A DNA stretch of 64,000 nucleotides from Fodinicurvata sp. EGI_FJ10296 (GTDB lineage: Bacteria > Pseudomonadota > Alphaproteobacteria > DSM-16000 > Inquilinaceae), in contig NZ_JBFCVL010000005.1 of the NCBI RefSeq assembly GCF_040712075.1, positions 372,001 to 436,000 of the forward strand, read 5' to 3'. Of the stretch, positions 5,985 to 52,343 are shown piece after piece. The position numbers were made by a program, and so were the translations under genes. The notes beneath the pieces are model-generated. The model searched no databases. It saw only the letters and a program-made list of their open reading frames with translations, and was not told the DNA's origin. The stretch's first letter is position 1, and each line of letters begins with the position of its first letter.

Positions 5985-6482
5985 ATGCCAGAACGCCGCC
6001 ACCTGACCCGCGACCTGTCCGACGTCGAACGCCAGGTCAACGGCGTGATCCGCTATGCCCAGGTGACCGAGGTCAATCACACCGCCGCGCGTGTCCGGAT
6101 CGCCGACGGGCCGATCGTCAGCAACTGGATCCGCTGGGCCGAAGCCCGCGCCGGCGCCGACCGCACCTGGGATCCGCCAACCATCGGCGAGCGCGTCATC
6201 GTTGTCTGTCCGGGCGGCGATCTGAACAACGGCACCGTCATCGCCCGGCTCAACTGCACCGACAACCCGCCACCCGATGACCGGCCGGCGGTGGACAAAC
6301 GCGCCTATGCCGACGGCACGGTGGTCGAACATGACGGCCAGGCCGGCACCACCCGGCTCACGACGCCCGGGCGCGTGACCGTTGAAGCGGAAGGCGGTAT
6401 CGCGCTACGCTCGAAAGGGGCAATCGACATCCGGGCCGAGGGGCCGATCACGATCAACGGAGCGACGGTGGATATTAACTGA
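5985..6482 (+). CDS. Baseplate assembly protein V (central spike), P2 gpV family
   Basis: A 165-residue gpV-type spike protein. The N-terminal part shows an OB-fold pattern (GVIRYAQVTEVNHTAARVRI, then IRWAEARAGADRTWDPPTIGE and VIVVCPGGDLNNGTVI). The C-terminal part is a repetitive beta-helix (TTPGRVTVEAEGGIALRSKG, AIDIRAEGPITINGATVDI) that forms the membrane-piercing needle. It marks the beginning of the P2-like tail module. Its last 8 bases overlap the end of the AT-rich minus-strand gene. Confidence 0.9.
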   Translation: MPERRHLTRDLSDVERQVNGVIRYAQVTEVNHTAARVRIADGPIVSNWIRWAEARAGADRTWDPPTIGERVIVVCPGGDLNNGTVIARLNCTDNPPPDDRPAVDKRAYADGTVVEHDGQAGTTRLTTPGRVTVEAEGGIALRSKGAIDIRAEGPITINGATVDIN

Positions 6483-7242
6483 TAAAATATGTATTATGCG
6501 CTGGGTTATCAAGACTAAGATCGATAATATTCATGGTAGTTGGAATTTTTCTTTCGATTTTTTGGATAATCATCTCGTCGACTTCTATATCGAGCCAATT
6601 ATCTGGTTTGATTTTCATGTATTCTCTCTCAATATCACCCTTAGAAACCTTTATGTTCTGTATTTCATTAGACTGGTTTCTTGCATATTTGTATATATTA
6701 TTAGACATTTTGCTGAGGATAATAGCATTATAAGATAAAGCGATTTTATCCGAAGTAACTCTATTTTCATAATGCTCTTTCATCCTTGCTTCGTGAATTT
6801 GATATGTATTCATCATGTGAAACATGTATCTTGCAGAATTAATATCTAAATATTCTATAGAATTCGTAATTGATGTAAGTAATTTTACTGGAGGTCGGAT
6901 GCGAGTTTCGGGGTTTAGTAAGTGCTTATTAAGACATTTCCTCGCATAATCTTCCATTTCATGGAGTTCGATACATACTTCATTTCTGTACCTGAATGAT
7001 CGAACCAAATTTATATCGCGTTTTTCATCATCGTACTTTTTTATTTGGGATTTCTGTATTTTAATTTGTCTTGTCAAAAAATAAACTGTAATAATTGCGC
7101 CAATTAACGCCAAGATTCCAGATGCCAAAGTTTGCCATTCATATAGATTATTTATAAAGACATTAAACATACTGTCCGTCGGATGATAATGTTTCTCACT
7201 CAATTCACTTAGCGCTGCTTTTACTATGATTGCATGAAGCAT
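6475..7242 (-). CDS. AT-rich membrane-anchored protein of unknown function (moron)
   Basis: A 255-residue protein on the strand opposite to the late operon, inserted between the spike gene V and its PAAR tip. It is strikingly AT-rich against GC-rich neighbours, a mark of recent transfer. One hydrophobic segment near residues 37-57 (LASGILALIGAIITVYFL) is followed by a charged, helix-forming cytoplasmic region with many lysines (QIKIQKSQIKKYDDEKR). No known domain was recognised. Its own strand and composition suggest expression from the lysogen, as for superinfection-exclusion or defence morons; that role is inferred. No clear ribosome binding site precedes the ATG; the ATG at 7173 is an alternative start. 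Confidence 0.75.
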   Translation of the reverse strand: MLHAIIVKAALSELSEKHYHPTDSMFNVFINNLYEWQTLASGILALIGAIITVYFLTRQIKIQKSQIKKYDDEKRDINLVRSFRYRNEVCIELHEMEDYARKCLNKHLLNPETRIRPPVKLLTSITNSIEYLDINSARYMFHMMNTYQIHEARMKEHYENRVTSDKIALSYNAIILSKMSNNIYKYARNQSNEIQNIKVSKGDIEREYMKIKPDNWLDIEVDEMIIQKIERKIPTTMNIIDLSLDNPAHNTYFIS

Positions 7243-7311
7243 TATGATATACAGCCGTTCACAAGAATTATCCGATGTTTTCTAGTATACCAAATAAGCA
7301 CGATAAACGAA

Positions 7312-7608
7312 ATGCCCCCAGCCACCCGCCTCGGCGATCTCTGCACCGGCCATGACTGCTGGCCGTCCCGGCCGTCGGTTGCCGGCAACGGCGATGTCCG
7401 GATCGAGGGCGCGGCCGCGCATCGCGTCGGCGACGCCTGGGACGTGCATTGCTGCGTCGATCGACCCACCGACTGCCATGCCGGGGTTTTGGCGGCCGGG
7501 TCGGGCACCGTGCGGATCAACGGCCGCCCGGCCGGGCGGATCGGCGACCCGGTGAGTTGCGGCTCGGTGGTCGCCACCGGCGCCGCCACGGTGCGCATCG
7601 GCGGATAA
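7312..7608 (+). CDS. PAAR-domain spike tip protein
   Basis: A 98-residue PAAR protein. The sequence begins MPPATRLGDLCTGHDC and contains three glycine-rich turns (GNGDVRIEGAAAHRVGD, GSGTVRINGRPAGRIGDPV, ATGAATVRIGG), with several Cys and His residues able to bind the metal at the sharp tip. It caps the gpV needle. The frame is open 26 codons further upstream, but that part is AT-rich and non-PAAR, so ATG 7312 is the chosen start. The AT-rich insertion has separated this gene from V, its usual neighbour. Confidence 0.88.
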   Translation: MPPATRLGDLCTGHDCWPSRPSVAGNGDVRIEGAAAHRVGDAWDVHCCVDRPTDCHAGVLAAGSGTVRINGRPAGRIGDPVSCGSVVATGAATVRIGG

Positions 7609-7621
7609 TCGAGGTTTTCCC

Positions 7622-7963
7622 ATGCAAGGAATGAACGCCATCACCGGCCAGTCTCTGGCCGGAACGGATCATCTCGCCCAGTCGATCCGCGATATCCTGA
7701 CCACCCGGGTCGGCACGCGGGTCATGCGCCGGGAGTACGGCTCGGACCTGCCGCGTCTGGTCGACGCCCCGCTGACGCCGGCGACCGTGGTCGATTTCTA
7801 TGCCGCCACCGCAAAGGCCCTGCGCCGGTGGGAGCCGCGCCTGCGGCTGACCCGCGTTCAGGCAGTGTCCGGATCGCGCCCCGGCCAGGTGGTCTTGAGC
7901 TTGACCGGCCGGGTCGTCGCCGACAATCAATCCGTTTCCCTGACCGTGGAGCTGTCGCCATGA
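7622..7963 (+). CDS. Baseplate protein, gpW/gp25 family
   Basis: A 113-residue wedge protein of the gp25/P2 gpW lysozyme-like family. It shows HLAQSIRDILTTRVGTRVMR, then REYGSDLPRLVDAPL, the family signature around the conserved R-x-x-G-S. It organises the baseplate wedge together with gpJ. It ends in an ATGA overlap with the gpJ gene, as in P2. Confidence 0.93.
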   Translation: MQGMNAITGQSLAGTDHLAQSIRDILTTRVGTRVMRREYGSDLPRLVDAPLTPATVVDFYAATAKALRRWEPRLRLTRVQAVSGSRPGQVVLSLTGRVVADNQSVSLTVELSP

Positions 7964-8874
7964 CCGACCTCGATATTCCGCCGGTGCGCGCCTATGCCGG
8001 GGTGGATCTGGCCAGTTTCGAGCCGCCGCCGATCGTCGACGAGGGCGACTTCGAGGCAATCCATGCCGAGATGCGCGCCGAGTTCGTCCGGCGCTATCCC
8101 GATTACTCGGCCATGGTCGAGTCCGATCCGGTTTCGGCGCTGCTGCAGGCCAATGCCTGGCGCGAGCTGCTGTTGCGCCAGCGCATCAACGAGGCCTCGC
8201 GCGCCACGCTGCTGGCCAGCGCCCGGGGTGAGGATCTCGACCGCAAGGCGTGGGACCTGTCGCAAACCCGCCGCCTGCTGATCAAGCCCGGCGACCCGGA
8301 CGCCCTGCCGCCGGTACCGCCGGTCTGGGAGGACGACGACGCCCTGCGCGAACGCGCGCAGCTGGCGCTGTACCGGCTGAGCGTGGCCGGGCCGGACAAT
8401 GCCTATATCTCCGCCGCCCGCGATGCGCATCCGGCGATCAAGTCGGCGTCCGTCGCCAGTCCGGAACCGGGCCGGGTCATCGTCACGGTGCTGACCCGCG
8501 AGGGCAAGGGCGTTCCGGGACCGGAAGTGCTGGAGGCGGTCGATACCGCGCTGTCTGCCCGCGATGTCCGGCCGCTGACCGACCGGGTCGAGATCCGCGC
8601 CGCCGCGATCCTCACGTACCGGGTCGAGGCCAGGCTTCGGGTCTATGACGGCCCCGATGCCGAGGTGGTGCGCGCCGAGGCCGACAAGCGTCTGCGGACC
8701 TACGTTGCCGCCCGTCACCGGCTGGGCGATCCGGTCACCCGCTCCGGCCTTTTTGCCGCCCTGTCGCCGCCGGGCGTTCAGCTCGTCACCCTCGACAGCC
8801 CGGCCGATCACATCCTGCCCACGGCGCATGAGGCGGCGTGGTGCGAAGCCATCACCATTACCCTGGAGGAATAG
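7960..8874 (+). CDS. Baseplate assembly protein J, P2 gpJ family
   Basis: A 304-residue wedge protein of the gpJ/Mu gp47 family. Landmarks are YPDYSAMVESDPVSALLQ near residue 48, LLLRQRINEASRATLLASA, GEDLDRKAWDLSQTRR, an ALYRLSVAGPDNAYISAA segment and the strand region with IVTVLTREGKGVPG. The length matches P2 gpJ (about 300). The start is the ATG that overlaps the gp25-like stop. Confidence 0.93.
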   Translation: MTDLDIPPVRAYAGVDLASFEPPPIVDEGDFEAIHAEMRAEFVRRYPDYSAMVESDPVSALLQANAWRELLLRQRINEASRATLLASARGEDLDRKAWDLSQTRRLLIKPGDPDALPPVPPVWEDDDALRERAQLALYRLSVAGPDNAYISAARDAHPAIKSASVASPEPGRVIVTVLTREGKGVPGPEVLEAVDTALSARDVRPLTDRVEIRAAAILTYRVEARLRVYDGPDAEVVRAEADKRLRTYVAARHRLGDPVTRSGLFAALSPPGVQLVTLDSPADHILPTAHEAAWCEAITITLEE

Positions 8875-8878
8875 CCCC

Positions 8879-9280
8879 ATGGCCCTGACACCCCTTGGCA
8901 CCGACACCGCGGTGGCCGCGCTGGCGGCGGCCGCGACGTCCCTGTCGCTGCACGGCGACGATCCCGGCGCCGACGGCGCCCAGGAGATCGACGGCGGCGC
9001 CTATGCCCGCCGCCCCGTGACCTGGAGCGAACCGGAGAACGGCGCGGTTGCCGCCACCGGCACGATCGGCTTCGAGGTGCCGGCCGGCGCCGTCGTCTCT
9101 CATATCGGCCTGTGGTCGGAGGCCGGCGGCTTTCTGGCGAAGATCAGCGTGCCGGAAGAGATGTTCGGCTCGGCCGGCGAATATCGCGTGACCGAACTGA
9201 CGCTGACCGTCGGCGACTGCCCGGCGCCGACTGACGGCCAATCGGGTGACGGGGGCAGTGAAACCGGGGGCGGGGCATGA
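8879..9280 (+). CDS. Small virion structural protein, unknown role
   Basis: A 133-residue protein following gpJ. It has the pattern SLHGDDPGADGAQEIDGG, then YARRPVTWSEPENG, a strand stretch and VVSHIGLWSEAGGFLAKI. Similar short proteins are found in many tail modules, where they are annotated only as phage tail or structural proteins. It ends with a glycine-rich tail and overlaps the next gene by 4 bases. A virion role is inferred from context. Confidence 0.7.
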   Translation: MALTPLGTDTAVAALAAAATSLSLHGDDPGADGAQEIDGGAYARRPVTWSEPENGAVAATGTIGFEVPAGAVVSHIGLWSEAGGFLAKISVPEEMFGSAGEYRVTELTLTVGDCPAPTDGQSGDGGSETGGGA

Positions 9281-9735
9281 CCGCGCTGGTCTTTCCCGGT
9301 GAGGCCGACGCCGAGGGCTGGGCGCCGGTGGTCGCAGCCCATCACCGCCCGGACGACCTGGCGCCCGACCGCCGGGCCCAGGGCATCGCGGTCGATGCCT
9401 GGGACCCGCCCGCCGATACCGCGTTCCGGACCCATGCCGCCTTCGTCCGGCTCGAGACCGGCGCGCTCGATCATCGCCCGATTGCCCGGCCGGTCGATCC
9501 TCGCCGGGTTCGCGCGCTGTTCACCCATGCCGAACGCCGGGCGATCAAGCTGGGCGACAGCCTGGACGCGGCCCAAGCTGCCGACCTTGCCATCCTCTGG
9601 GAAGACGTCTTCGACCGCGAGACCGTCACCCTCGACGATCCGGCACTGACCGAACTGCTCGACTGGCTGGTCGCCCGCGATCTGCTGACCGTCGAGCGCC
9701 GGGACGCCATCGCATCAGGCCACGCGCCTGCCTGA
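9277..9735 (+). CDS. Phage protein of unknown function in the baseplate region
   Basis: A 152-residue acidic protein, translationally coupled to the preceding gene by an ATGA overlap. No domain was recognised. The C-terminal half is helical and rich in Asp, Ala and Leu (LDAAQAADLAILWEDVFDRE, then LTELLDWLVARDLLTVERRD). Together with the previous gene it lies between J and I, where P2 has no gene, so it belongs to the accessory baseplate set of this phage group. Confidence 0.65.
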   Translation: MTALVFPGEADAEGWAPVVAAHHRPDDLAPDRRAQGIAVDAWDPPADTAFRTHAAFVRLETGALDHRPIARPVDPRRVRALFTHAERRAIKLGDSLDAAQAADLAILWEDVFDRETVTLDDPALTELLDWLVARDLLTVERRDAIASGHAPA

Positions 9736-15727: not shown

Positions 15728-15897
15728 CCCTCGGCCCGGCAGGCGTCGGCGAGGCCATGGCCGATATCGCCGCCGTCTTCCACTGGCCGCTCGCCGACCT
15801 GGAGCGCCTCGAAGTGTCGGAACTCGCCTTCTGGCACGACAAGGCGGTCAAGCGCTACCAGGCCATGAGCCAGACGAAAGAACCCCGCCATGTCTGA
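15467..15897 (+). CDS. Tail assembly chaperone E+E' made by programmed -1 frameshift
   Basis: Reading 84 codons to 15718 and then shifting back one base continues into a frame open to 15897, giving a 143-residue protein. The -1 part begins VSLTLGPAGVGEAMADI and contains FHWPLADLERLEVSELAFWH, the conserved GpE family signature. That signature has no start codon of its own in a sensible place, so frameshifting is the natural explanation. The end of E' overlaps the tape-measure start, as in P2. Confidence 0.85.
15712..15718 (+). promoter_or_regulatory. Slippery heptamer T TTT TTG for -1 frameshifting
   Basis: In the zero frame the codons are GGT TTT TTG. Slipping one base back allows both tRNAs to re-pair on TTT TTT. 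The site lies three codons before the zero-frame stop and opens the frame of the conserved E' domain. P2 uses a T-rich heptamer of this kind at the same place. Confidence 0.85.
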
Positions 15898-18418
15898 CGC
15901 CCAATCGCGGGTCCAGGTCGTCATCTCGGCCATCGATCGGCTGACCGCGCCGCTGCAGCGCATCACCCGCTCGATCGGCCGGCTGTCGACGCCGTTGCGC
16001 CGGATCCAGTCCCTGGCCAGCCGCATCGGCCGGGCGACGGGGCTGCAGCGGATCGGACGCGCGGCCGACGCGGCCGCCCGGCGGGTGCGGGTCCTGTCCG
16101 ATCGCCTGAGCGAAGCCGGCCGCCGGAACCGGGAAGCGCTGTCCGAACGCCACGGCCAGGCCATGGAAGCGGTCGGCATCGGCATGGCGCTTTATGGCGC
16201 CATGCGGCCGGCGGTGGCGTTCGAGGATTCCATCGCCCGGGTCGGCGCCGTTGCCAATGCCAGCAGTTCGGACATGGAACGGCTGTCGGCGTCGGCGCGC
16301 GAGATCGGCCGGGTGGCACCGGTCGGCGCCTCGGACGCGGCCGACGCCATGGGCTATCTCGGCATGGCCGGCATGGACACCAACGAGATCCTTGCAGCCA
16401 CGCCCGACCTGGTCAACCTGTCGATCGCCGGCGGGACCGATCTGGCCCGAACGGCGGACATCGCCTCGAACATTCTCAGCGGCTTCAACATGTCCGCCGG
16501 CGAAATGGGCACGGTCGCCGACACCATGGCCGCCACCGTAAACTCGGCCAACGTTGACGTCGCGATGCTAGGCGACACCATGGCCTATGTCGCCCCGGCC
16601 GCCTCGAGTGCGGGCGCCTCGCTGCAGGAAGTCGCCGCCATGGCCGGCATGCTGGGCGATGTCGGCATCCAGGGCAGCCGGGCGGGCACGGCGCTCAACG
16701 CCGTCTATTCGCGGCTGTCCTCGCCGGTGGGCGAAGCGGCCAACGCGCTCGCTGATCTGGGCGTCGAGGCGTCAGACGCCGACGGCAATCTGCGCGCCGT
16801 GCCGGATGTTCTGGCGGATCTGTCCCGCCAGGTCGAAGGCATGGGCAGTGCCGAACTGTCCGCGACGATCACGCGGATCTTCGGCCGCGAACCGGCCGCC
16901 GCCGTTCAGCAATTGCTGAACCAATCGATCGATGGCTCGCTTTCGGCCTATATCAACGAACTGTCCGACGCCGAAGGCGCGGCCCAGGGCCTTGCCGCGC
17001 GCATGGACGATACCACCGGCGGCGCCCTGCGGCGGTTGAGCAGCGCGGCCGAGAGCGTCGCGATCACCGTCGGCAACCTGTTCCTGCCGGCGCTGGCCGA
17101 TCTGGCGGAGAAGCTGGCGGCCGTCGCCAACTGGGTGACCGATCTGGCCGAACGCTATCCGACCCTGACCCGGTGGATAGGCTATGCCGCCGGCGGGCTG
17201 CTGGCGATGCGGGTGGCGATGACCGCCGTCAGCATCGCCTCACTGGTCATGAAGGGCGGGTTGATCGGGGCGGCGCTGGGCGTCACCAAGATGGCGGCCG
17301 GCCTGGCGCTGATGCTGTCGCCGGTGGGGCTGGCGATCGGCGCCGTCGCCGCGCTCGCCGCCGGGGCCTATCTGATCTACAGCAACTGGGACAGCGTCGC
17401 CGCATGGTTCGGCGGCCTCTGGAACTGGTTCGCCGACACTGCCCAGAGCGCCTTGTCCGCGATCACCGGCTTCCTGTGGGACTGGCATCCCAGCGCTCTG
17501 GTGGCACGGGCGGTCAACGGCATTGTCGAAAGCCTGTTCGGCATCGATATGTTCGCGCTGGGGCGGGAATGGATCGGCGCCCTGGCCGACGGCGTCTCCG
17601 GCGCCTGGAACAGCTTTACCGACTGGCTGACCGGCGCCATCACGTCGCTGCTCGACTGGATGCCCGATCTGGTCAAAGACAAGCTGGGCATCGAGGTGAC
17701 GGCAACGCCGCTGTCAGACAGCGAGATCGAGCAACAGGCGGCCGAGACCGCCCGCCGGGAAAGCGCCGGCAATGGCCCGGGACCGGGCAACAGCGGCGAA
17801 TACCAGGCCGCCTTCGAGCGCGAACGCGACCGGCTGCGGGCGGAGAACGCGCGGATCCGGCGCGAAGCCGCCAACCAGCTCACGCTGCCCGACATGCCAG
17901 ACATCGCGAACGATACGGCACAACGGCCGGGCGTCGACCTCGATCGCTTCCGCGTCGCCACCCCGACGACGGCAGCCCCAAGGGTTGCCACCTACACTCC
18001 CGGATCGACCGCGGCCGCGATGCCGGCGGTCCCGATGCCGACGGCGCCGGCGGTGGACACGGTTTCGATGCCGACCGTGGAATCTGCCATCGACGCCGGC
18101 GCCGCCGGGCCCGCGATGCGGGAGCTCGAGGGGCTGGGACAGTCGCTGACGGCGATGGAAGATGACAATGCCGGCATCCAGGCGCAGCTGCAGAACCTCG
18201 ACGATCCGGAGACGTCGCTGTCCGGCCCGACCATCACACAGCTGGCCGAGGCGGTCGAACAGCCGCAGCCCGACGTGACCGTCAACATCAGCGAGGGCGC
18301 GATCGTCATCCAGGTCCAGAACGGCAATACGGAGTCCATCCGCCAGGCCGTCGATCAGGGGCTGCGCCGCTCGGCCACCGACGCGGCCCGCACCGCGCGG
18401 GCATCGTTTCATGATTGA
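15890..18418 (+). CDS. Tail tape measure protein, P2 gpT type
   Basis: An 842-residue protein. The N-terminus is basic and helical (VVISAIDRLTAPLQRITRSI), followed by a TP901/P2-type tape domain with SGFNMSAGEMGTVADTMA and AAMAGMLGDVGIQGSRAGTA around residues 195-265. Hydrophobic segments lie near residues 430-500 (ALMLSPVGLAIGAVAALAAG), followed by WDSVAAWFGGLWNWF and then alanine- and proline-rich sequence to the end. It sets tail length and probably inserts in the host inner membrane. The start overlaps the end of E'. Confidence 0.92.
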   Translation: MSDAQSRVQVVISAIDRLTAPLQRITRSIGRLSTPLRRIQSLASRIGRATGLQRIGRAADAAARRVRVLSDRLSEAGRRNREALSERHGQAMEAVGIGMALYGAMRPAVAFEDSIARVGAVANASSSDMERLSASAREIGRVAPVGASDAADAMGYLGMAGMDTNEILAATPDLVNLSIAGGTDLARTADIASNILSGFNMSAGEMGTVADTMAATVNSANVDVAMLGDTMAYVAPAASSAGASLQEVAAMAGMLGDVGIQGSRAGTALNAVYSRLSSPVGEAANALADLGVEASDADGNLRAVPDVLADLSRQVEGMGSAELSATITRIFGREPAAAVQQLLNQSIDGSLSAYINELSDAEGAAQGLAARMDDTTGGALRRLSSAAESVAITVGNLFLPALADLAEKLAAVANWVTDLAERYPTLTRWIGYAAGGLLAMRVAMTAVSIASLVMKGGLIGAALGVTKMAAGLALMLSPVGLAIGAVAALAAGAYLIYSNWDSVAAWFGGLWNWFADTAQSALSAITGFLWDWHPSALVARAVNGIVESLFGIDMFALGREWIGALADGVSGAWNSFTDWLTGAITSLLDWMPDLVKDKLGIEVTATPLSDSEIEQQAAETARRESAGNGPGPGNSGEYQAAFERERDRLRAENARIRREAANQLTLPDMPDIANDTAQRPGVDLDRFRVATPTTAAPRVATYTPGSTAAAMPAVPMPTAPAVDTVSMPTVESAIDAGAAGPAMRELEGLGQSLTAMEDDNAGIQAQLQNLDDPETSLSGPTITQLAEAVEQPQPDVTVNISEGAIVIQVQNGNTESIRQAVDQGLRRSATDAARTARASFHD

Positions 18419-22304: not shown

Positions 22305-22346
22305 GGCTCGGACCCATTTCCCCACCACAACAGGAGATCATCAACC

Positions 22347-22877
22347 ATGACCCCCTTCGAGTCCGCGCTGGCCTTCGTCCTGGAGCACGAGGGCGGCTTC
22401 GTCGACCACCCCGAAGATCCGGGCGGCGCGACCAACCAGGGCATCAAGCTGGCGACCTTCCGCCGGTGGGCGCGCCGGCATGGTCACCATACGCCGACAG
22501 TCGACGAGCTGAAGGCGATCCCGGCCGCCACCGTCCGGGCGATCTATCGCGACGATTACTGGCAGGCGGTGCTGGGCGACGAGCTGACGCCCGCGGTGGC
22601 GCTGATCACCTTCGACATGGGCGTCAACGCCGGACCGGACCGTGCGGTGCGGATCCTGCAGCAGACGGTGGGCGCCATCGTCGACGGCAAAATCGGACCG
22701 CAGACGGTCAGTTACGCCCGCCGCGAGGGCGACGACCCGGCAACGCTGGACGAGATCACCGCCAGGCGGCTGCACTATTACGGCCAGCTCGGCCACTTCG
22801 GGACCTTCGGGCTCGGCTGGGCGCGCCGCACCGTCGCCGCCCGCCGCGCGGCCGAAGCCATCGCCGTCGCCGGCTGA
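22347..22877 (+). CDS. Endolysin, glycoside hydrolase family 108
   Basis: A 176-residue lysozyme of the GH108 family. It has the catalytic EHEGGFVDHPEDPGGATNQG motif (Glu at residue 13), YRDDYWQAVLGDELTPAVAL and FDMGVNAGPDRAVRILQQTV, followed by the peptidoglycan-binding-like part beginning VDGKIGPQTV. There is no signal peptide, so export would depend on a holin. A CAACAGGAG-like site precedes the ATG. An intrinsic terminator follows. Confidence 0.93.
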   Translation: MTPFESALAFVLEHEGGFVDHPEDPGGATNQGIKLATFRRWARRHGHHTPTVDELKAIPAATVRAIYRDDYWQAVLGDELTPAVALITFDMGVNAGPDRAVRILQQTVGAIVDGKIGPQTVSYARREGDDPATLDEITARRLHYYGQLGHFGTFGLGWARRTVAARRAAEAIAVAG

Positions 22878-25205: not shown

Positions 25206-25524
25206 CAACCGGCCTGCTATTCCTTCAGAAGGCTGGTTGAGTTCCGGATCTTGCCATTCCAAGATAGCAGCGCAAGGAACCGCGATTTCGGACATCAGTG
25301 TACTTTCAATCGTCGGGTCAACGGTCCCGGTGGTCACGAAAGTGGCCAGTACGGAGGGACTGCGAGGAACATCTCTCGGTTGTCGATTTGCGAATCAGAG
25401 GTATACCGATTAGTTATCAATACATATTCCTTGAATTTTTATCGGCCTTAACATTCAATGCTTCTAGGTGAAGCAGGCTTGCAGCTTTTATTTTCTACCT
25501 CCGCCGTCGAAAGGTTGAGACCAT
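25206..25524. other. Intergenic stretch between the immunity region and the AT-rich gene
   Basis: No convincing gene is present. A plus-strand frame (25200-25451) has no ribosome binding site and no recognisable product. The base composition drops toward AT after about 25390, marking the edge of the foreign gene that follows. An operator region for a repressor could lie here but no clear repeat was seen. Confidence 0.5.
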
Positions 25525-26022
25525 ATGACTATAGCAAAATATGAGGAATGGCCTACCGTTAGAGCTCAATCTGGTGGTCGCGAGAACTGGTTCTATGACC
25601 CCGAACGATGTGATTTTGAGTATATTGACATATCCAATGGTTGCCTAAATATAAAAACTAGTACCGGAGGAACGGAGAGAGGTTTAGCAACACTCGTTAC
25701 TATTCCATTAGATTATATAATCAGCAAACTGCCAGAATTGTACGAAAGTGAAAATGAGAAATTAAGACAAATAAATAATATCAGGTCCGAATATATTGAT
25801 AATAAAATATATCAACAATCAAGGCTCTGGCTTGATTTTAAGATAGAGCATTTGAGTATTTCTGATGAAATTAAAAATTCGCTATTTTTAGCGAATATTA
25901 ATACCATAAAAGACCTGTGCAAAAAATCTGTCAACGAAATATTAGAGATTGACGGTATTGAAGATCAGTTTTTAATTTATATAAAAGGATGGCTAGAACG
26001 TAGGGGATTATCGTTAAAGTAA
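25525..26022 (+). CDS. AT-rich accessory protein ending in an RNA-polymerase alpha-CTD-like domain
   Basis: A 165-residue protein, strongly AT-rich, in the accessory slot beside the integrase. The first 80 residues are unassigned. The last 65 residues read like the helix-hairpin-helix C-terminal domain of RNA polymerase alpha: a start like IEHLSISDEIKNSLFLANI, then NTIKDLCKKSVNEILEIDGI and the ending YIKGWLERRGLSL. In the polymerase this domain binds UP-element DNA and activators. A GAAAGG site precedes the ATG. The role is unknown; DNA binding or mimicry of the polymerase domain is possible. Confidence 0.75.
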   Translation: MTIAKYEEWPTVRAQSGGRENWFYDPERCDFEYIDISNGCLNIKTSTGGTERGLATLVTIPLDYIISKLPELYESENEKLRQINNIRSEYIDNKIYQQSRLWLDFKIEHLSISDEIKNSLFLANINTIKDLCKKSVNEILEIDGIEDQFLIYIKGWLERRGLSLK

Positions 26023-26040: not shown

Positions 26041-27270
26041 TAGCGCATCTATTTTATTCTGGTGATACGAAAACCCGACAGAAAAATTAATCCAATCCGC
26101 CATCAACGCCCGCCGTTTCTCGAAAACATCACCCCGCCGATAGGCCCGCTCCACAGCTGAACCGACGATATGGGCGAGCGCCTGTTCGGCGATTTCGGAG
26201 GGGTAGCTGGTCGTCTCGGCGACCCAGTCACGAAACGTCGATCGGAAACCGTGCGCCGTCAGGTCGCCCCGACCCATCCGGCGGAGAAGCATCAGGAAGG
26301 CCATGTTGCTGAGCGGCTTGCCCTTGCGCTGACCGGGGAAGACGTAGCCCGTCCGGCCGAACATGGTGCCCATGTCCTGAACGATCCTGGCGGCGGCCGG
26401 CGGCAGCGGGACACGGTGTTCCTTCCCCGCCTTCATCCGGTCGGCCGGAATGGTCCAGACGGCGCCGCCATCGCGATCGAGATCGATCTCATCCCATGTT
26501 GCGCCGAGGACCTCCGACGTCCGGGCGACGGTCAGGATCGCGAACTCCAGCGCCCGCGCGCTGGTCCCTACCTGTTCGCGCAGCGTCGCCATGAAAGCCG
26601 GCAGTTCGGCATAGGGCAATGCCGCGTGGTGCTCGACTTTCCGCACCTTTGCCTTCGCCGGCAGCCGGTTCTGCAGATGGCCACGCCACCGGGCCGGATT
26701 CAGCCCTTCCCGAAGCCCATCGACGGCCGCCCAATCCAGAACCGATTCTATGCGGCCGCGCAGTCGGCTCGCCGTTTCCGGTTTCGTCGACCAGATCGGC
26801 TCAATCGCCTGCAGGACGAGACCCGTATCAACATCGGCCACCGGCTTGTCGCCGAACACGGGATAGGCATAGGTCTTCAGCGTCGATCGCCATTGTCCCT
26901 TGTGCTTCTCATTGCGCCAGGCAGCCTCGTGCGCCTCGATATAGGATTCCGCGGCTGTCTCGAATGTAATCGCCCGGGCCGATTCTTTCTCGGCCGCCGC
27001 CTTCTCGTCGCGCCTGTGCTCCTGCGGATCAATTCCGTCGGCCAGTTGGCGACGGTATGACAGAGCCTTCTCCCGCGCGTCGGCCAGCGAGACCAGATCG
27101 ACCGGCCCGAGCCCCATCTGCCGTTCGCGATAGTTGACCTTGTAGCGGAACACCCACGACTTCGCCCCGCCGGGTTTGACGAGGAGGAACAGATTGCCGC
27201 CGTCGGCATAGCGACCGGGAACCTTGGCGGTGGCCACTTTGCGCGCAGACAACCTACCCGACGATGGCAT
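26038..27270 (-). CDS. int: Prophage integrase, P4-type tyrosine recombinase
   Basis: A 410-residue tyrosine recombinase. Residues 1-90 form the P4-type N-terminal arm-binding domain (YADGGNLFLLVKPGGAKSWV, then YRERQMGLGPVDLVSLADAR). The catalytic domain carries R250 (ILTVARTSEV), H340-x-x-R343 (HGFRSTFRDW), H367 (ALAHIVG) and the nucleophile Y377 (VERAYRRGD). All key residues are present, so the enzyme should be active. It reads away from the tRNA-Ser gene 169 bases beyond its start, the usual layout for P4-type integration into a tRNA 3' end. Confidence 0.95.
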   Translation of the reverse strand: MPSSGRLSARKVATAKVPGRYADGGNLFLLVKPGGAKSWVFRYKVNYRERQMGLGPVDLVSLADAREKALSYRRQLADGIDPQEHRRDEKAAAEKESARAITFETAAESYIEAHEAAWRNEKHKGQWRSTLKTYAYPVFGDKPVADVDTGLVLQAIEPIWSTKPETASRLRGRIESVLDWAAVDGLREGLNPARWRGHLQNRLPAKAKVRKVEHHAALPYAELPAFMATLREQVGTSARALEFAILTVARTSEVLGATWDEIDLDRDGGAVWTIPADRMKAGKEHRVPLPPAAARIVQDMGTMFGRTGYVFPGQRKGKPLSNMAFLMLLRRMGRGDLTAHGFRSTFRDWVAETTSYPSEIAEQALAHIVGSAVERAYRRGDVFEKRRALMADWINFSVGFSYHQNKIDAL

Positions 27271-27435
27271 CGCGCCCTCGCCCGCTGAAATTCGCTACCC
27301 CCACCGTTACCCCCTTTGTTACCCCCCACGTACCGACTTCTGATTGCATCACGTCGGACAGCGTTGGACAACAGGGTTGGCTAAGTCGTTGATTTCTGGG
27401 GATTTCTGGAAGCTATCGGACGACACTACACCCGG

Positions 27436-46332: not shown

Positions 46333-47508
46333 TCAGCGCTCGGCGGCGGACAACGCAGGTCCCGACACCCAGCGGCGGCAATGGCCGCGCAGTTCCAAAG
46401 CGAACCGCTCAGCGCTGAACAGCCTTGCGCGCCCGGCCAAATGTGCTCTCACCTCGTCGCGCAGGTCCGGATCCTGCGCCAGAGCGGCCAGACGCGCCAC
46501 TGCCTGATCGTCATCCCCATAGGTCAACCGCGGATCGCCGACGATCTCGCACGGGCCGCCCGATGCATGGACCACTGTCAGGCAGCCCATGCGTATGCCC
46601 TCGGCGACGGCTATCCCGAAATGCTCATCGATCATCAGATGCAGGGCATACCGGCACCGCCCAATCAAGCCTATGAGTTCTTCGCGCGTCGATCCGACAT
46701 GCAGATGAACCCAGTCGGAGTCGGCATGAGCCGCCCCTTTGACCCGTTCCAGATACGCCTCATTCGCCGGCAATCCGCACAGATGCAGCGAAAGCGGGTA
46801 TCCGGCCTCACGCACCCGGCGCACGATGTCGATCGCTTCCAGGGTCCGCTTTTCCGGCGAGAAGCGGCCGACCACCACGACCGCATCCTCGCGATCCTCC
46901 CAGGAGCGTCCGGTCGTTTCAATCGGCACCGGCGGATAGAGGGTCACCGGGCGCCGGCCGTATGCCCGGCGGAATATGGCGCCTGTCCAGTCGGAGTTGA
47001 CGAGACTGAGGTTCTCGGATTGCCGGCCCTGATCGAAGCGACCGATGCGCATGGCCATCCGGCGATAGAGTGCAACTGCCCTGGCCGAATGATACCAACG
47101 CAATTCGGCCTCGGGCCGGGGCAATGCGATCCACGGATAATGCACGTACTGAATTATGGGTCGGCCGACATCCATTTCATTGGCGGTCGAAACCACTATG
47201 GCGGGCTCGTGCGCGGCGATCCAGGACCGGGCAACCCGCATCAGGAACATCGATTTCAACAAAGAGCCGCGCGTCGGCAATAGGCCTGCCAGCATCAGGA
47301 GCGGCTTTGCGACGGTCACGACGTCGATCTGCGGCATCTCTGCGAGCCGGGTGCCATAGTTGCGGTCGAGATCGGCCAGCGGCCGCGGCCGCCAACTCAG
47401 CACAGTGACGTCGAAGTCGGCCGCCAGCGCCTGTACCGCCCACAGCCCGACCATCAGCCCTCCGCCGGTTTCCCTCAGATCGCCGATGATGATCAATGCG
47501 CGGCTCAT
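46333..47508 (-). CDS. ALG11-like GT4 glycosyltransferase
   Basis: A 391-residue GT-B enzyme. Its motifs resemble eukaryotic ALG11, which adds alpha-1,2-mannose to the lipid-linked oligosaccharide: YVHYPWIA (residues 121-128), VNSDWTGAIFRRAYG (170-184), TLYPPV (189-194), VVGRFSPEKRTLEAIDI (212-228), LHLMIDEHFGIAVAEGIRMG (289-308) and ASGGPCEIVGD (315-325). The start ATG at 47508 overlaps the ALG1-like stop in an ATGA arrangement, so the two enzymes are coupled. No signal peptide is visible; it should act on the cytoplasmic face of the membrane. Substrate and linkage are inferred from homology. Confidence 0.85.
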   Translation of the reverse strand: MSRALIIIGDLRETGGGLMVGLWAVQALAADFDVTVLSWRPRPLADLDRNYGTRLAEMPQIDVVTVAKPLLMLAGLLPTRGSLLKSMFLMRVARSWIAAHEPAIVVSTANEMDVGRPIIQYVHYPWIALPRPEAELRWYHSARAVALYRRMAMRIGRFDQGRQSENLSLVNSDWTGAIFRRAYGRRPVTLYPPVPIETTGRSWEDREDAVVVVGRFSPEKRTLEAIDIVRRVREAGYPLSLHLCGLPANEAYLERVKGAAHADSDWVHLHVGSTREELIGLIGRCRYALHLMIDEHFGIAVAEGIRMGCLTVVHASGGPCEIVGDPRLTYGDDDQAVARLAALAQDPDLRDEVRAHLAGRARLFSAERFALELRGHCRRWVSGPALSAAER

Positions 47509-48788
47509 CAGTTTCCCTTTTGGGCAAGATGCTGCAGAAGTGCCGGCCGTGCCACGCGATCCCAAACATCCGGCCAGGTTTCGGCCCGTGGGCTTTCAGG
47601 CGAAAGGATTTTGGGCGGCGGTTCCCCCGGCAGCGTCGGCAGCGCCCGCAGGTGTCGCCGCAGCCCTGCGCTGTCGGAGAACAGCCCGACCCGCGCCAGA
47701 TGGGCCACACCCTGACGCAGGACGGGCCCATAATCGAACGCCAGCACAGGCATGCCGGCCGCTTCCATATCCACGATCTTCATCGGAAAATCCAGCTTCG
47801 ATGACGATGTGTGCAGGCAGATGCCGACCGAAGCGAGGTGCAGCATGCGTTCATAGTCGTCCTCGGCCAGCCATCCGGTGGCAACGCGCAGTCCTGGCCG
47901 CCGCAGCATTGACACCCGGCGCTCGAAGGCGGCTCGGCCAGGCCCTTTCCCGGTGATGATGACGGCGAGGCCGTTGCCGTCCTGCATTTCCAGTTCGGCC
48001 AGCGCGTCGATCAGCATCTCCATGTCCTCGTCCAGCCCCCAGCTGGTCGGGCTGACGGCGAGGTGCCATCGGCGATCCGGGGGGCGCTCGGGGTCAAGTC
48101 CCTCACCGCCCAGCTGGCGGATCAGATCGTCGATGGCGACCGCCGACACTTCGCGCGGAGGATCGGTGGGCTGGTGGGCCGGGCGATCCGGCAGCACGAG
48201 AATTTCGCGGTCGAACCGCGCATGCAGGTGATCGGCCATGGCAGCAGTGACAGCGAATTGAAGGGTCGCCCGACGGCCGATCCAGCTTTCCACCGCCGAT
48301 AGCCCGCGCACCACCAGATGTCGGCGGCCGACCGACAGTGCCGCCATTGACGCGGAAAGATTGTGCCAGTCGATCGCCACCGGAATACCGCGACGGCGCG
48401 CCATAGCGACGGCCATGGCGACGGCGGGTACGACCGGCGGCACGGCGGCCAGAACCATATCCGCACCGTTCATCGCCCGCCGGAGAACGCCGCCGAGGCG
48501 CCATGCCGTGGCGCAGAAGCGTCCGGCAGCGCCAATCAGCCGTCCCGACCGGGAAGACCGGACGGTTCTGGCCCGTCCGGCGCCGCCAATGGCCGTGACC
48601 GCGACTTTCGGGTGAGCAAAGGGGAACGCAATGGCGTCGCCGTGGCCAACAACCCTGACCTCGGCGCCGGCCGCCACAAACATTTGGCACTGCGCGACCA
48701 TACGCGGCGATTGCTCCAATGGACCGGGCACAAGCAGTACGACAGTCTTGCCCTCGAAGTCGCGTTTGGCCCATGGTGCGCTGCTCAC
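47508..48788 (-). CDS. ALG1-like (GT33) beta-mannosyltransferase
   Basis: A 426-residue enzyme with the complete motif set of ALG1, which adds the first mannose to GlcNAc2-PP-lipid: SPRM (27-30), PVAIDWHNLSASMAAL (136-151), FAVTAAMADHL (178-188), LPDRPAHQP (199-207), SPTSWGLDEDMEMLIDAL (246-263), IITGKGPGRAAFE (277-289), and ICLHTSSSKLDFPMKIVDM (323-341). The last motif, H-T-S-S-S-x-L-D-x-P-M-K-x-V-D-M, is the ALG1 hallmark. GTG is the start. There is no N-terminal membrane helix, unlike eukaryotic ALG1. It is divergent from the GT28 gene across 35 bases. Confidence 0.88.
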   Translation of the reverse strand: MSSAPWAKRDFEGKTVVLLVPGPLEQSPRMVAQCQMFVAAGAEVRVVGHGDAIAFPFAHPKVAVTAIGGAGRARTVRSSRSGRLIGAAGRFCATAWRLGGVLRRAMNGADMVLAAVPPVVPAVAMAVAMARRRGIPVAIDWHNLSASMAALSVGRRHLVVRGLSAVESWIGRRATLQFAVTAAMADHLHARFDREILVLPDRPAHQPTDPPREVSAVAIDDLIRQLGGEGLDPERPPDRRWHLAVSPTSWGLDEDMEMLIDALAELEMQDGNGLAVIITGKGPGRAAFERRVSMLRRPGLRVATGWLAEDDYERMLHLASVGICLHTSSSKLDFPMKIVDMEAAGMPVLAFDYGPVLRQGVAHLARVGLFSDSAGLRRHLRALPTLPGEPPPKILSPESPRAETWPDVWDRVARPALLQHLAQKGN

Positions 48789-48823
48789 CGTTCCCAGTTC
48801 TCGCTTGTTCCGGAATTTATTTG

Positions 48824-49915
48824 ATGCGTCAGTTGATTGTCGGTCTGGCCGGTGGTTACACGGCCGGGCACGTCATGCCAATGATTGCGGTCGCGGAGGC
48901 CTGGCAACGATCCTACCCCGAAGACCGCGTGCATTTCTATGGCTCAGGCAGCGAGATCGAAACATTGCTCATGGACCAGCTTCGCATGCCGCTGGAGATT
49001 CTGCCGGCGGCCCCGGCTTTCGGCACGACCCGCCTGGGAAAATTGAAGGCCTACGGCACGGCCATCAGGGCGGGACTCGCCGGACGATCCAGCCTGCGGG
49101 ACAAAGGCGTCGATCTGATGATCTCGTTCGGCGGATACGCCGCCGCTGGGGCCGGCATGGCCGCCGCCAGTCTCGGCATACCGCTGACGGTGTTCGAGGC
49201 GAATGCCATCCCCGGCCGGACGAATACCCTGCTCAGCCGCGCCGCGCGGCTCAAGATCGTCGCGATGCGCGAAGCGACGAGCCACGCCCGCTGGCGCAAT
49301 GCGTCGATTCTGGGCCTGCCCCGGCGCAGCGGGCACTGCCCCAGACCGGAGAACGAGTGCCGCCACGACCGGCGGCCGCGACTGCTGGTGACCGGCGGAA
49401 CCCTGGGCAGCGACACGCTGAACCAGGCGGTGCCGGCCGCCATCGCCCATCTCGCCCGGAACGCCAATGTCGTCGATGTCGTCCATCAATCCGGTCTCGG
49501 CAACAAGGAGACGGTCGCTGCTGCTTATCGGCGGTTCGGCATCGACGCGACAGTGTTCGATTTCGACCTCGCGATCTGGGACCGATGGTGCTGGGCCGAT
49601 GCGGTCTTGTGCACAGCCGGTGCTGGCACACTCTCCGACGCCGTGGCCAGTGGTGTGCCGACCATTGCCGTCCCGGTCGTCGACGTCGCCGATGGACATC
49701 AGGAAGCCAACGCGAAAGCCATCGCGGCGCATGACAACATCGCCGTTCTGCACGAACCGGAACTCATCTCCGAAACGATCGCAAGCCGCCTGACGGCACT
49801 ATTGCGGGCGCCGCGCACCCCAGGTCCTCCCGGTTCGGATGCCGCGGCACGAATGGTCGAAGCAGTTCGCGCCGGATGCGTGCGGCGAAAGATCACCAGA
49901 ACCGGTCTGTCATGA
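48824..49915 (+). CDS. MurG-family GT28 glycosyltransferase, second copy type
   Basis: A 363-residue GT28 enzyme related to MurG and to ALG13/ALG14. The N-terminal loop is GGYTAGHVMPMIAVAEAWQ (residues 10-28), followed by MISFGGYAAAGAGMAAASLG. The nucleotide-binding half holds LLVTGGTLGSDTLNQAVP, LCTAGAGTLSDAVASGVPTI and VVDVADGHQEANAKAIAAHD, with the GAGT and HQ-x-x-NA signatures for UDP-GlcNAc. It is not in a dcw cell-wall cluster, so a role other than peptidoglycan is likely. It probably adds a GlcNAc-type sugar to a polyprenyl-PP-sugar. The ATG at 48824 is chosen because upstream in-frame codons have no similarity. STT3 follows after 28 bases. Confidence 0.85.
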   Translation: MRQLIVGLAGGYTAGHVMPMIAVAEAWQRSYPEDRVHFYGSGSEIETLLMDQLRMPLEILPAAPAFGTTRLGKLKAYGTAIRAGLAGRSSLRDKGVDLMISFGGYAAAGAGMAAASLGIPLTVFEANAIPGRTNTLLSRAARLKIVAMREATSHARWRNASILGLPRRSGHCPRPENECRHDRRPRLLVTGGTLGSDTLNQAVPAAIAHLARNANVVDVVHQSGLGNKETVAAAYRRFGIDATVFDFDLAIWDRWCWADAVLCTAGAGTLSDAVASGVPTIAVPVVDVADGHQEANAKAIAAHDNIAVLHEPELISETIASRLTALLRAPRTPGPPGSDAAARMVEAVRAGCVRRKITRTGLS

Positions 49916-49943
49916 AATCAGAACAGCTATCCGCTCCGCAGCG

Positions 49944-52343
49944 ATGACGGCTTCTCTGCGCCCCGTGCTGCCGATCCTGCTGGCACTGCTGCTGATTGCC
50001 GCTGCGGGCGGGGGTGTGCGGTACTTCCACTACACTCTGCCATATGCCGAGATCTGGGCTGAAGGTGAGTCCGGCCCGGATTTACCTGCCACACAGGACG
50101 AACGGGCCGACGCCTATCGTGCCGCCTATGGTTTTCGGGACGAGGCCGGGCGGTGGACGTCGCTGCCGGTCGGCCATGACTCATACTATTTTATGCGGAT
50201 GGCGCGGCGGATCGCGGCGACGGGCACGCCCTGCACGCCGGGTCTTGACGGTTGCCACGACGATCTCGCCAGCGCACCGACCGGTCGGCCAGTGCTGGAC
50301 GCCTGGTCGCCGCATCCTCATGCCATTGCCGGTGTGCACCGGCTATGGACGGCGATCGATCCGGCACGGCCGATTCTGGATTCCGCCCGCGTGCATGCCT
50401 GGCTGATGATGACGCTGGGCGGCCTGACGGCATTTTTCCTGGTACGATCCGCGGTCGGGCGCGGCTTTCCCGGCTGGGCGGGCGGCGTCACCGCCGCGAT
50501 TGGCCTGTGCCTCAATCCGTTGATCATTCAGCGCACGTTCGGCGCTGATGACGATGTCTGGATCCTGGCGCTGATGCTGGCGGGCGGGCTTTGCGCCGTG
50601 CGGGCCTTTGACCCGGCAGGAGCGGGAATCCGCCGTGCTGCATGGGCCGCCAGCGCCGGCGCCATGGCGGGAACGCTATCTCTGGCCTGGGGCGGCTGGC
50701 CGTTTCTGGCCGTCGTCATGACCGGACTGGGCCTGACGGCGATGGTATGGCCGTTCATCAGGCCCCGCCCGTTGAGGGCGTGGCGCGAGGGAGCATGCGC
50801 AGTGCTGCTCGTCGCGGCGATGATTCTGGTAATGGGCGCGATTGCAGCGGTGCAAATCACGGCCGACGACCTGCGCGCATTTCTGGCCATTGCGGCGAAC
50901 ACGGTCGGCACGGGCGCTGAGCCGCCGCCGGTGGACGCCACACCCGTGCCCGATGCCTTCGCCAGCGTTGCGGAATTGACAGAACCGGCGTGGAGCGACA
51001 TTGCCCGGACGATCGGCTGGGTCATGGGCGGGCTGGCCGTGGTCGGTCTCGCGGCCGCGGCGTGGAAGATCGTTCGGCGCATCGGAGGCTGGTTTCCGGC
51101 CGCCTGGATTCTGCCCGTCGTCTGGCTGCTTGCCGGGCTTTCCCTGGCCGGTGATGCCGAACGGTTCGGCATTCTGCTTTTTCCGCCCGTAGCGATTCTT
51201 TCCGGGGCCGGATTGGCGGTGGTGCTGTCGTTGCTCGCCGGGGCCCAGCGTAACCGGGGCGCGACACAGACCAGACCGGCGATCGCCGCGACGGCCATGA
51301 CCTGCATCGTGGTCCTGGTCCCGGTCCTCGTCTGGGGGGCGGCTGTCTGGCGCGGGATAGAGACCGTCTCCGGCAACCGGCCCGCCCTGGACCAGCGATG
51401 GGTGTCGGTGTTCTCGCAGCTCCGGGACGACAGTGCCGAGGATGCCGTTCTCATCGGATGGTGGGATGTCGGGCATTGGGCGACGTTCTGGGCGGAAAGG
51501 GCCACGGTCCTTGATGGCGCCACCATCGGCAGCCCCCGCACGCCGGCCGTCGCGCGGCTGCTGGGCGCCGACGCCGATGGTCCGATCGGCGCACTGGTTG
51601 CGTCCTCGGCATGCCCTGATGGCGAAAACCCGATCGGCTGCGGCACGCGCGAACTGTATCTGCTGACCTCGTCTGACCTGCTTTCCATCGACGGCTGGAT
51701 GATCGCGGGCTTCTGGGATGCCGAGCGGGCCCGCCTGCTGGATTCGTTCGCCGCCGGGGATCGGACCCAGAACCATTCGCCGGAGATGCAGTCGGAAATG
51801 GCCGGCGTCACGTCCCGGCGGCAGCGAGCGCTGTTCGCCGCACCCCAGGCGCGCATCTGGTCGCGCGACTGGCACGACTGCACCGTCGATGAAAACGGGC
51901 GCTATGACTGTGGTCTCGATATCGGCAGCGCCGATGGCTGGCGGCTGGTGTCGTTCCGGTTCGATCCCGCCGCGCCGGAAGAGTCGCATCTGATATTGCA
52001 GCCGCCAGAGTCGGGCGATGGGACCTCGGGCGATCGGACCACGGCGCGCCCGGCGATGCTGCGGGTCGCCACGGCATCGTCTTTGATCGAGTTCCATGCC
52101 ACACCGGGGTCCACGAGGCCGGGAGTGCTGGTGGACACGGCCGAACAGCGGGTTTTTGTCGGCATGCAGCCGTTGCTCAAGTCACTGGTCGCGCGGCTGG
52201 TGCTTCTGGATGGCCGATTCGACGATCACAGGGCCACATCCGTCGCCCAAAGCACGGGGCTGGAGGGGGGCACCGTGCGGGCATGGCGCCTGAGACTGCC
52301 TGAATCCCCGGACGAATCGTTGGACGAAACGGGCCCCAACTGA
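49944..52343 (+). CDS. STT3/AglB/PglB-like oligosaccharyltransferase
   Basis: A 799-residue membrane protein with a long C-terminal soluble domain. Landmarks of the GT66 family are: the first acidic motif with D79 (LPVGHDSYYFMRMARRIAAT), the second acidic motif D202-D204 (IIQRTFGADDDVWIL), the SVAE motif (residues 341-344, matching SVSE/TIxE of known enzymes), a conserved R407 (AERFGILLFPPVAIL) and the acceptor-sequon-binding WWDVG (506-510, in VLIGWWDVGHWATFW). About 12 membrane segments lie between residues 5 and 470. It should transfer a lipid-linked glycan to Asn of exported proteins. The start ATG lies 28 bases after the GT28 gene; the end overlaps imuA tail to tail by 118 bases. Confidence 0.9.
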   Translation: MTASLRPVLPILLALLLIAAAGGGVRYFHYTLPYAEIWAEGESGPDLPATQDERADAYRAAYGFRDEAGRWTSLPVGHDSYYFMRMARRIAATGTPCTPGLDGCHDDLASAPTGRPVLDAWSPHPHAIAGVHRLWTAIDPARPILDSARVHAWLMMTLGGLTAFFLVRSAVGRGFPGWAGGVTAAIGLCLNPLIIQRTFGADDDVWILALMLAGGLCAVRAFDPAGAGIRRAAWAASAGAMAGTLSLAWGGWPFLAVVMTGLGLTAMVWPFIRPRPLRAWREGACAVLLVAAMILVMGAIAAVQITADDLRAFLAIAANTVGTGAEPPPVDATPVPDAFASVAELTEPAWSDIARTIGWVMGGLAVVGLAAAAWKIVRRIGGWFPAAWILPVVWLLAGLSLAGDAERFGILLFPPVAILSGAGLAVVLSLLAGAQRNRGATQTRPAIAATAMTCIVVLVPVLVWGAAVWRGIETVSGNRPALDQRWVSVFSQLRDDSAEDAVLIGWWDVGHWATFWAERATVLDGATIGSPRTPAVARLLGADADGPIGALVASSACPDGENPIGCGTRELYLLTSSDLLSIDGWMIAGFWDAERARLLDSFAAGDRTQNHSPEMQSEMAGVTSRRQRALFAAPQARIWSRDWHDCTVDENGRYDCGLDIGSADGWRLVSFRFDPAAPEESHLILQPPESGDGTSGDRTTARPAMLRVATASSLIEFHATPGSTRPGVLVDTAEQRVFVGMQPLLKSLVARLVLLDGRFDDHRATSVAQSTGLEGGTVRAWRLRLPESPDESLDETGPN

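Follow-up and report, generated by a model that had tools for sequence, protein, structure and literature searches.

An ALG1-like gene beside an STT3 homologue in a bacterium: a candidate locus for protein N-glycosylation with ALG-type transferases

Can a bacterium assemble an N-glycan with transferases of the eukaryotic ALG type? This question is raised by four adjacent genes, P0001 to P0004, in a 64,000-nucleotide stretch of the genome of the alphaproteobacterium Fodinicurvata sp. EGI_FJ10296 (contig NZ_JBFCVL010000005.1, positions 372,001 to 436,000; hereafter the window), which the original prediction read as ALG11-like, ALG1-like and MurG-family transferases next to an STT3-type oligosaccharyltransferase. 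All four open reading frames (ORFs) exist at the stated positions, where they make up the long coding frames, and they are arranged as two divergent pairs, with P0002 followed by P0001 on the minus strand and P0003 followed by P0004 on the plus strand. We propose, with a probability of about 0.7, that the locus supplies most of the enzymes for a bacterial lipid-linked oligosaccharide pathway for protein N-glycosylation, in which ALG-type transferases replace those of the Campylobacter pgl system.

ALG1 is the eukaryotic enzyme that puts the first mannose on N-glycans. The ALG1-like (GT33-type) gene P0002 (47508..48788, minus strand, likely start 48788) matches only general GT4 models in profile searches, and structure prediction gives a GT-B fold and nothing more specific. 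Its product aligns in full length with human ALG1 (29% identity, E 2e-35) and yeast ALG1 (28% identity, E 9e-32), and the likeness is well beyond chance at the sequence level. Our reference ALG sequences, these two included, were only partly verified; the human ALG1 used has a length of 464 and carries Q50, S258 and A360 as published variants require. P0002 shares SPR, IDWHN, ITGKGP and HTSSS.LD.PMK..DM with both enzymes. The signature HTSSSKLDFPMKIVDM (residues 326-341; 47766..47813, minus strand) is almost unchanged across the human, yeast and bacterial ALG1 proteins, and SPRM (residues 27-30; 48699..48710, minus strand) is invariant in our alignment of bacterial ALG1 proteins (A2), yeast having SPR. 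In a phylogenetic tree, 19 bacterial ALG1 copies form one clade with the human and yeast enzymes, set apart from other GT4 enzymes (support 100/100). These features identify P0002 as a genuine ALG1 relative, within the ALG1 clade and not among general GT4 enzymes, with predicted GDP-Man:GlcNAc2-PP-lipid beta-1,4-mannosyltransferase activity, and bear out the original assignment.

A scan of 84,980 species yielded four more bacterial ALG1 loci, and profile searches added copies in G418 and G492, two genomes of the phylum that holds loci L006 and L007, and 12 besides that of locus L008 among 297 Acidobacteriota. These ALG1 proteins reach 214-690 bits; wherever the next-best GT4 enzymes of a sample were listed as well, they stayed at or below 49 bits. 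The ALG1 of L006, from a groundwater deltaproteobacterial metagenome-assembled genome, matches human ALG1 with 44% identity across 442 residues, which makes it far closer than P0002. The tree favours a placement of eukaryotic ALG1 within the bacterial copies, not significantly (approximately unbiased test, p 0.28 for bacterial monophyly). Eukaryotic contamination was rejected as the source of the bacterial copies, because two of them are found on contigs of 1.86 Mb and many stand beside bacterial genes for ATP-binding cassette (ABC) proteins, phosphoglycosyltransferases or MurG-like enzymes.

The second pillar of the proposal is P0004 (49944..52343, plus strand; the ORF opens at 49839, likely start 49944). 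It matches the Pfam STT3 model PF02516 with 41 bits against a cut-off of 24.5 (E 2e-10); a Pfam STT3 search of the whole genome missed it through a loss of sensitivity, and direct hmmscan detects it. The protein aligns with the STT3 proteins of L006 and L007. Asp114 in the first acidic motif DSYYF (50178..50192), Asp237 and Asp239 in the DXD motif ADDDVW (50544..50561) and Glu379 in the SVSE/TIXE-type motif SVAEL (50964..50978), all on the plus strand, are invariant in alignments A3 and A4. The WWDYG-type sequon-binding motif is WWDVG here (51459..51473, plus strand), WWDYG in L006 and L007, and WWDFG in L024. When a profile of five P0004-type proteins (A4) was compared with the PDB, only oligosaccharyltransferases were matched at E<=0.2, namely STT3A, STT3B, yeast STT3, Campylobacter lari PglB and archaeal AglB. 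Hydropathy indicates about 10 membrane segments followed by a soluble C-terminal domain. By its sequence, P0004 is a GT66 oligosaccharyltransferase of the STT3/PglB/AglB family with intact catalytic motifs, as originally claimed, and is predicted to transfer to Asn in N-X-S/T.

P0003 (48824..49915, plus strand; the ORF opens at 48719, likely start 48824) lies 28 bp ahead of P0004 and is separated from the divergent ALG1-like gene by 35 bp (48789..48823). It matches the N- and C-terminal GT28 domains (PF03033, 63 bits; PF04101, 95 bits) and scores 170 bits against the murG equivalog TIGR01133, short of the 250-bit cut-off. GYTAGH and FEAN take the place of the GGTGGH and HEQN of E. coli MurG, and the TAGH and EAN pattern is common to most ALG1-linked MurG-like relatives. 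The low equivalog score and these two motifs set it apart from the MurG of peptidoglycan synthesis; P0003 is classed as a MurG paralogue and is a probable second-sugar N-acetylhexosamine (HexNAc) transferase. On this point the original reading was not supported as worded: an identity with ALG13/14 was not adopted, as the strongest matches are to MurG, no direct comparison with ALG13/14 being made.

The ATG of P0001 (46333..47508, minus strand; the ORF opens at 47565, likely ATG 47508) overlaps the stop of P0002 in a TGATG junction. Its profile matches are again limited to general GT4 models (PF00534, 57.6 bits), and it is 33-42% identical to GT4 enzymes encoded beside ALG1 in six other loci (L024, L041, L044, L046, L048 and L049). 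This clade of bacterial GT4 enzymes (100/99, long branch) is weakly placed as sister to a single ALG11 sequence at 93/81. P0001 aligns with ALG11 at 25% identity over 232 residues (E 2e-10) and is no nearer to it than to ALG2; the suggested link to ALG11 is weak, and the name was rejected as unproven, the GT4 assignment standing. In three sister loci we found ALG2 homologues; their identity to human ALG2 is 40-49%, and the tree joins them to the human protein with support of 100/99.

Is the gene set conserved elsewhere? Its recurring linkage is seen in Acidobacteriota and one other phylum, in independent loci that together hold genes for STT3, MurG-like, ALG1, ALG2- or P0001-like, PglK-type and phosphoglycosyltransferase proteins, in line with the conserved pathway first predicted. 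L006 carries STT3, MurG-like, ALG1 and ALG2 genes; L007 has STT3, ALG1 and a PglK-type ABC exporter; L008/L053 have MurJ, MurG-like, ALG1 and ALG2; L009 has ALG1, ALG2, a Bac_transf phosphoglycosyltransferase and a PglK-type ABC gene; and L024 has MurG-like, ALG1, P0001-like, ABC and STT3 genes. In five loci (the window, L006, L053, L024 and L052) the MurG-like gene and the ALG1 gene are in head-to-head orientation. Two loci contain in-frame fusions. In L025, which also has ALG1 and ABC genes, a PF02397 phosphoglycosyltransferase and a MurG-like GT28 enzyme share one open frame (7245-9119). In L041, with ALG1, P0001-like and STT3 genes, a PF00953 WecA/ALG7-family enzyme and a PglK-type ABC exporter do so (6391-9357).

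Within the sample of 297 Acidobacteriota genomes, the Pfam STT3 model matched in 7 of the 13 genomes that bear ALG1, against 4 of 80 sampled without it (Fisher p 5e-5, a value that, like those below, ignores relatedness); leaving out the genome from the first scan gives 6/12 (p 2e-4). The six ALG1-bearing genomes that lack STT3 coincide exactly with a single ALG1 sub-clade; excluding it post hoc leaves STT3 in 7/7 (p 6e-8). The ALG1-like gene of this sub-clade lies among pyrimidine-catabolism-like genes in all four loci read, a split that was noticed afterwards. In these genomes an ALG1-like enzyme has another, so far unexplained use. The neighbours in these loci (L042, L043, L045 and L047; L033 and L050 belong to the same clade), judged by eye, are hydantoinase/dihydropyrimidinase, aldehyde dehydrogenase, DHOD-like and molybdopterin oxidoreductase genes. 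A window-type STT3 profile detected STT3 in only 2 of the 297 genomes, fewer than the Pfam model, because the Acidobacteriota STT3s are AglB-like and not of the window type. Four loci of this phylum (L061, L062, L067 and L074) encode AglB-like oligosaccharyltransferases with WWDQG or WWDLG. A second STT3 of genome G398 (L054:4253-6388) stands beside a Bac_transf phosphoglycosyltransferase and a GT4 gene, away from the ALG1 locus.

How might the products act together? We infer the sugars, linkages, flippase and Asn acceptor, and draw the step order from family knowledge and the gene fusions of other loci. A phosphoglycosyltransferase encoded elsewhere in the genome would make undecaprenyl-PP-HexNAc, and P0003 would add a second HexNAc; the gene fusions argue that the MurG-like enzyme acts directly after the initiating transferase. 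P0002 would then add a hexose, probably beta-mannose, and P0001 would lengthen the chain by at least one more hexose. The glycolipid would next be turned by a flippase to the periplasm, where P0004 would transfer the glycan to Asn of exported proteins. The flippase may be a PglK-like ABC exporter found by the genome search that the original prediction had called for (contig 7:302522-304246; 445 bits, the next ABC protein scoring 251). By eye, a region of that contig (L100:2487-19610, G000 contig 7) resembles a polysaccharide cluster, with the PglK-like ABC gene, several glycosyltransferases, dTDP-rhamnose-type genes, a UDP-sugar dehydrogenase-like gene and a glmS-like gene.

Several observations weigh against the proposed N-glycosylation pathway. 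No phosphoglycosyltransferase or flippase gene is found in the window, and the candidate flippase gene sits in the polysaccharide-like cluster just described. P0002 is the most divergent of the ALG1 copies (tree branch 2.0). WWDVG in P0004 deviates from WWDYG by a change of Tyr to Val, and the AlphaFold2 model of this protein, with a predicted local distance difference test score of 37, is too poor for active-site geometry. Genomes G418 and G400 have the transferases, and no STT3 was found in them. Finally, ALG1 homology alone is no proof of N-glycosylation, because one Acidobacteriota sub-clade lacks STT3 and has the pyrimidine-catabolism context. A rival reading is a different acceptor: the same lipid-linked glycan would be made, and P0004 would pass it to Ser/Thr, to a lipid or to a specialised partner instead of a sequon Asn. 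The acceptor is unreadable from the locus, and P0004 is divergent, its WWDVG motif being accompanied by a core-domain score (PF21436) of 16 bits, under the 23-bit cut-off. We consider this unlikely, since Asp114, Asp237/239, Glu379 and WWDxG are retained and the family profile matches N-oligosaccharyltransferases only.

It is more improbable still that the three transferases build a capsule, O-antigen or exopolysaccharide unit with STT3 as a chance or secondary neighbour. MurG-like and GT4 enzymes are known from such clusters, L008/L053 lie near Wzz- and MurJ-type genes, and the setting of the genome's own PglK-like exporter fits this reading. Against it stand the linkage of STT3 and ALG1 in the window, L006, L007, L024 and L041, their co-occurrence in Acidobacteriota, and our finding no Wzz or other polysaccharide genes adjoining the window locus. 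Equally hard to sustain is the idea that the locus is a horizontally gained remnant, decaying or repurposed. It stands alone among the 385 genomes searched in its class, and P0002 and P0001 have long branches; the four open frames, intact catalytic motifs and tight operon junctions, together with a GC content near that of the flanks (0.665 vs 0.64), speak against this idea.

Where did the window copy come from? The original prediction proposed a check for co-occurrence of the four genes across alphaproteobacteria, and an ALG1 of this kind is present in only 1 of the 385 class genomes, that of the window itself. This isolation makes horizontal gain likely, and the copy was probably acquired in that way. 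Its long branch and isolation are at odds with the suggestion of a relic near the origin of the eukaryotic system. One flank consists of housekeeping genes (gatAB, carbamoyltransferase, plsY, dprA, topA, an RNB-domain RNase and an S41 peptidase) and the other of general genes. A plasmid search with P0004 and P0002 as queries gave no match. Positions 1-27300 of the window appear prophage-like by eye, with a tail tape-measure-like protein (15869-18415), a GH108-like endolysin (22305-22874), an integrase-like gene (26041-27294) and AT-rich genes (6478-7281 and 25519-26019).

The eukaryotic dolichol pathway, in its cytoplasmic steps (ALG7, ALG13/14, ALG1, ALG2, ALG11) and with STT3, resembles the proposed one in its ALG1, in the true ALG2 homologues of the sister loci, and in combining a GT28-superfamily second-sugar enzyme with a GT66 transferase. 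It differs in that a MurG type here replaces ALG13/14, no lumenal GT-C mannosyltransferases are seen, the oligosaccharyltransferase is single-subunit, the carrier is probably undecaprenyl and the sister loci have a PglK-type ABC flippase. With Campylobacter Pgl (PglC, PglA, PglJ, PglH, PglI, PglK, PglB) the locus shares a PglB-family oligosaccharyltransferase and clustered genes, and the sister loci a PglK-type flippase and a PglC-type phosphoglycosyltransferase. In contrast to that system, the transferases are of the ALG1 and MurG-like types together with a P0001 or ALG2 type, the loci showed no bacillosamine genes, and the scanned flanks of the window contain no phosphoglycosyltransferase, flippase or bacillosamine genes of a Campylobacter-type Pgl locus. 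The premise that known bacterial N-glycosylation is all bacillosamine-based is contradicted by Desulfovibrio gigas HmcA, which carries three HexNAc on Asn (PMC4894442). The Desulfovibrio PglB systems likewise combine an oligosaccharyltransferase outside Campylobacterota with a HexNAc-based N-glycan (PMC4894442), whereas ALG1-type transferases are undescribed for Desulfovibrio in the literature examined. Archaeal Agl systems (Agl24, AglB) share a chitobiose-type core and an AglB-family oligosaccharyltransferase, the type seen in Acidobacteriota, and differ in Agl24, which falls on the ALG13/14 side of its family (PMC8993221).

A 2015 survey placed bacterial oligosaccharyltransferases in epsilon- and deltaproteobacteria and Aquificae, not in Acidobacteriota or the class of the window. 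We found no report of a bacterial ALG1 or ALG2 beside STT3 in the open-access literature (subscription papers, preprints and CAZy being outside its scope). ALG1 has been reported as lacking in archaea, and a 2016 phylogenomic study did not find its closest prokaryotic relatives, giving its origin as unknown and possibly a eukaryotic innovation (PMC4973528). The grouping of eukaryotic ALG1 and ALG2 with bacterial copies bears on this unsolved origin, and bacterial homologues of both beside STT3 make the question testable. We suggest tentatively that several bacterial phyla may have ALG-type N-glycosylation with a Man-HexNAc2-type core, and that eukaryotic ALG1 and ALG2 may derive from such bacterial genes; if true, part of the eukaryotic N-glycan pathway would have a bacterial source. 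The loci also point to bacterial N-glycosylation of another type. Its glycan could have the same core as in eukaryotes, and such a core would be useful for producing eukaryote-like glycoproteins in bacteria.

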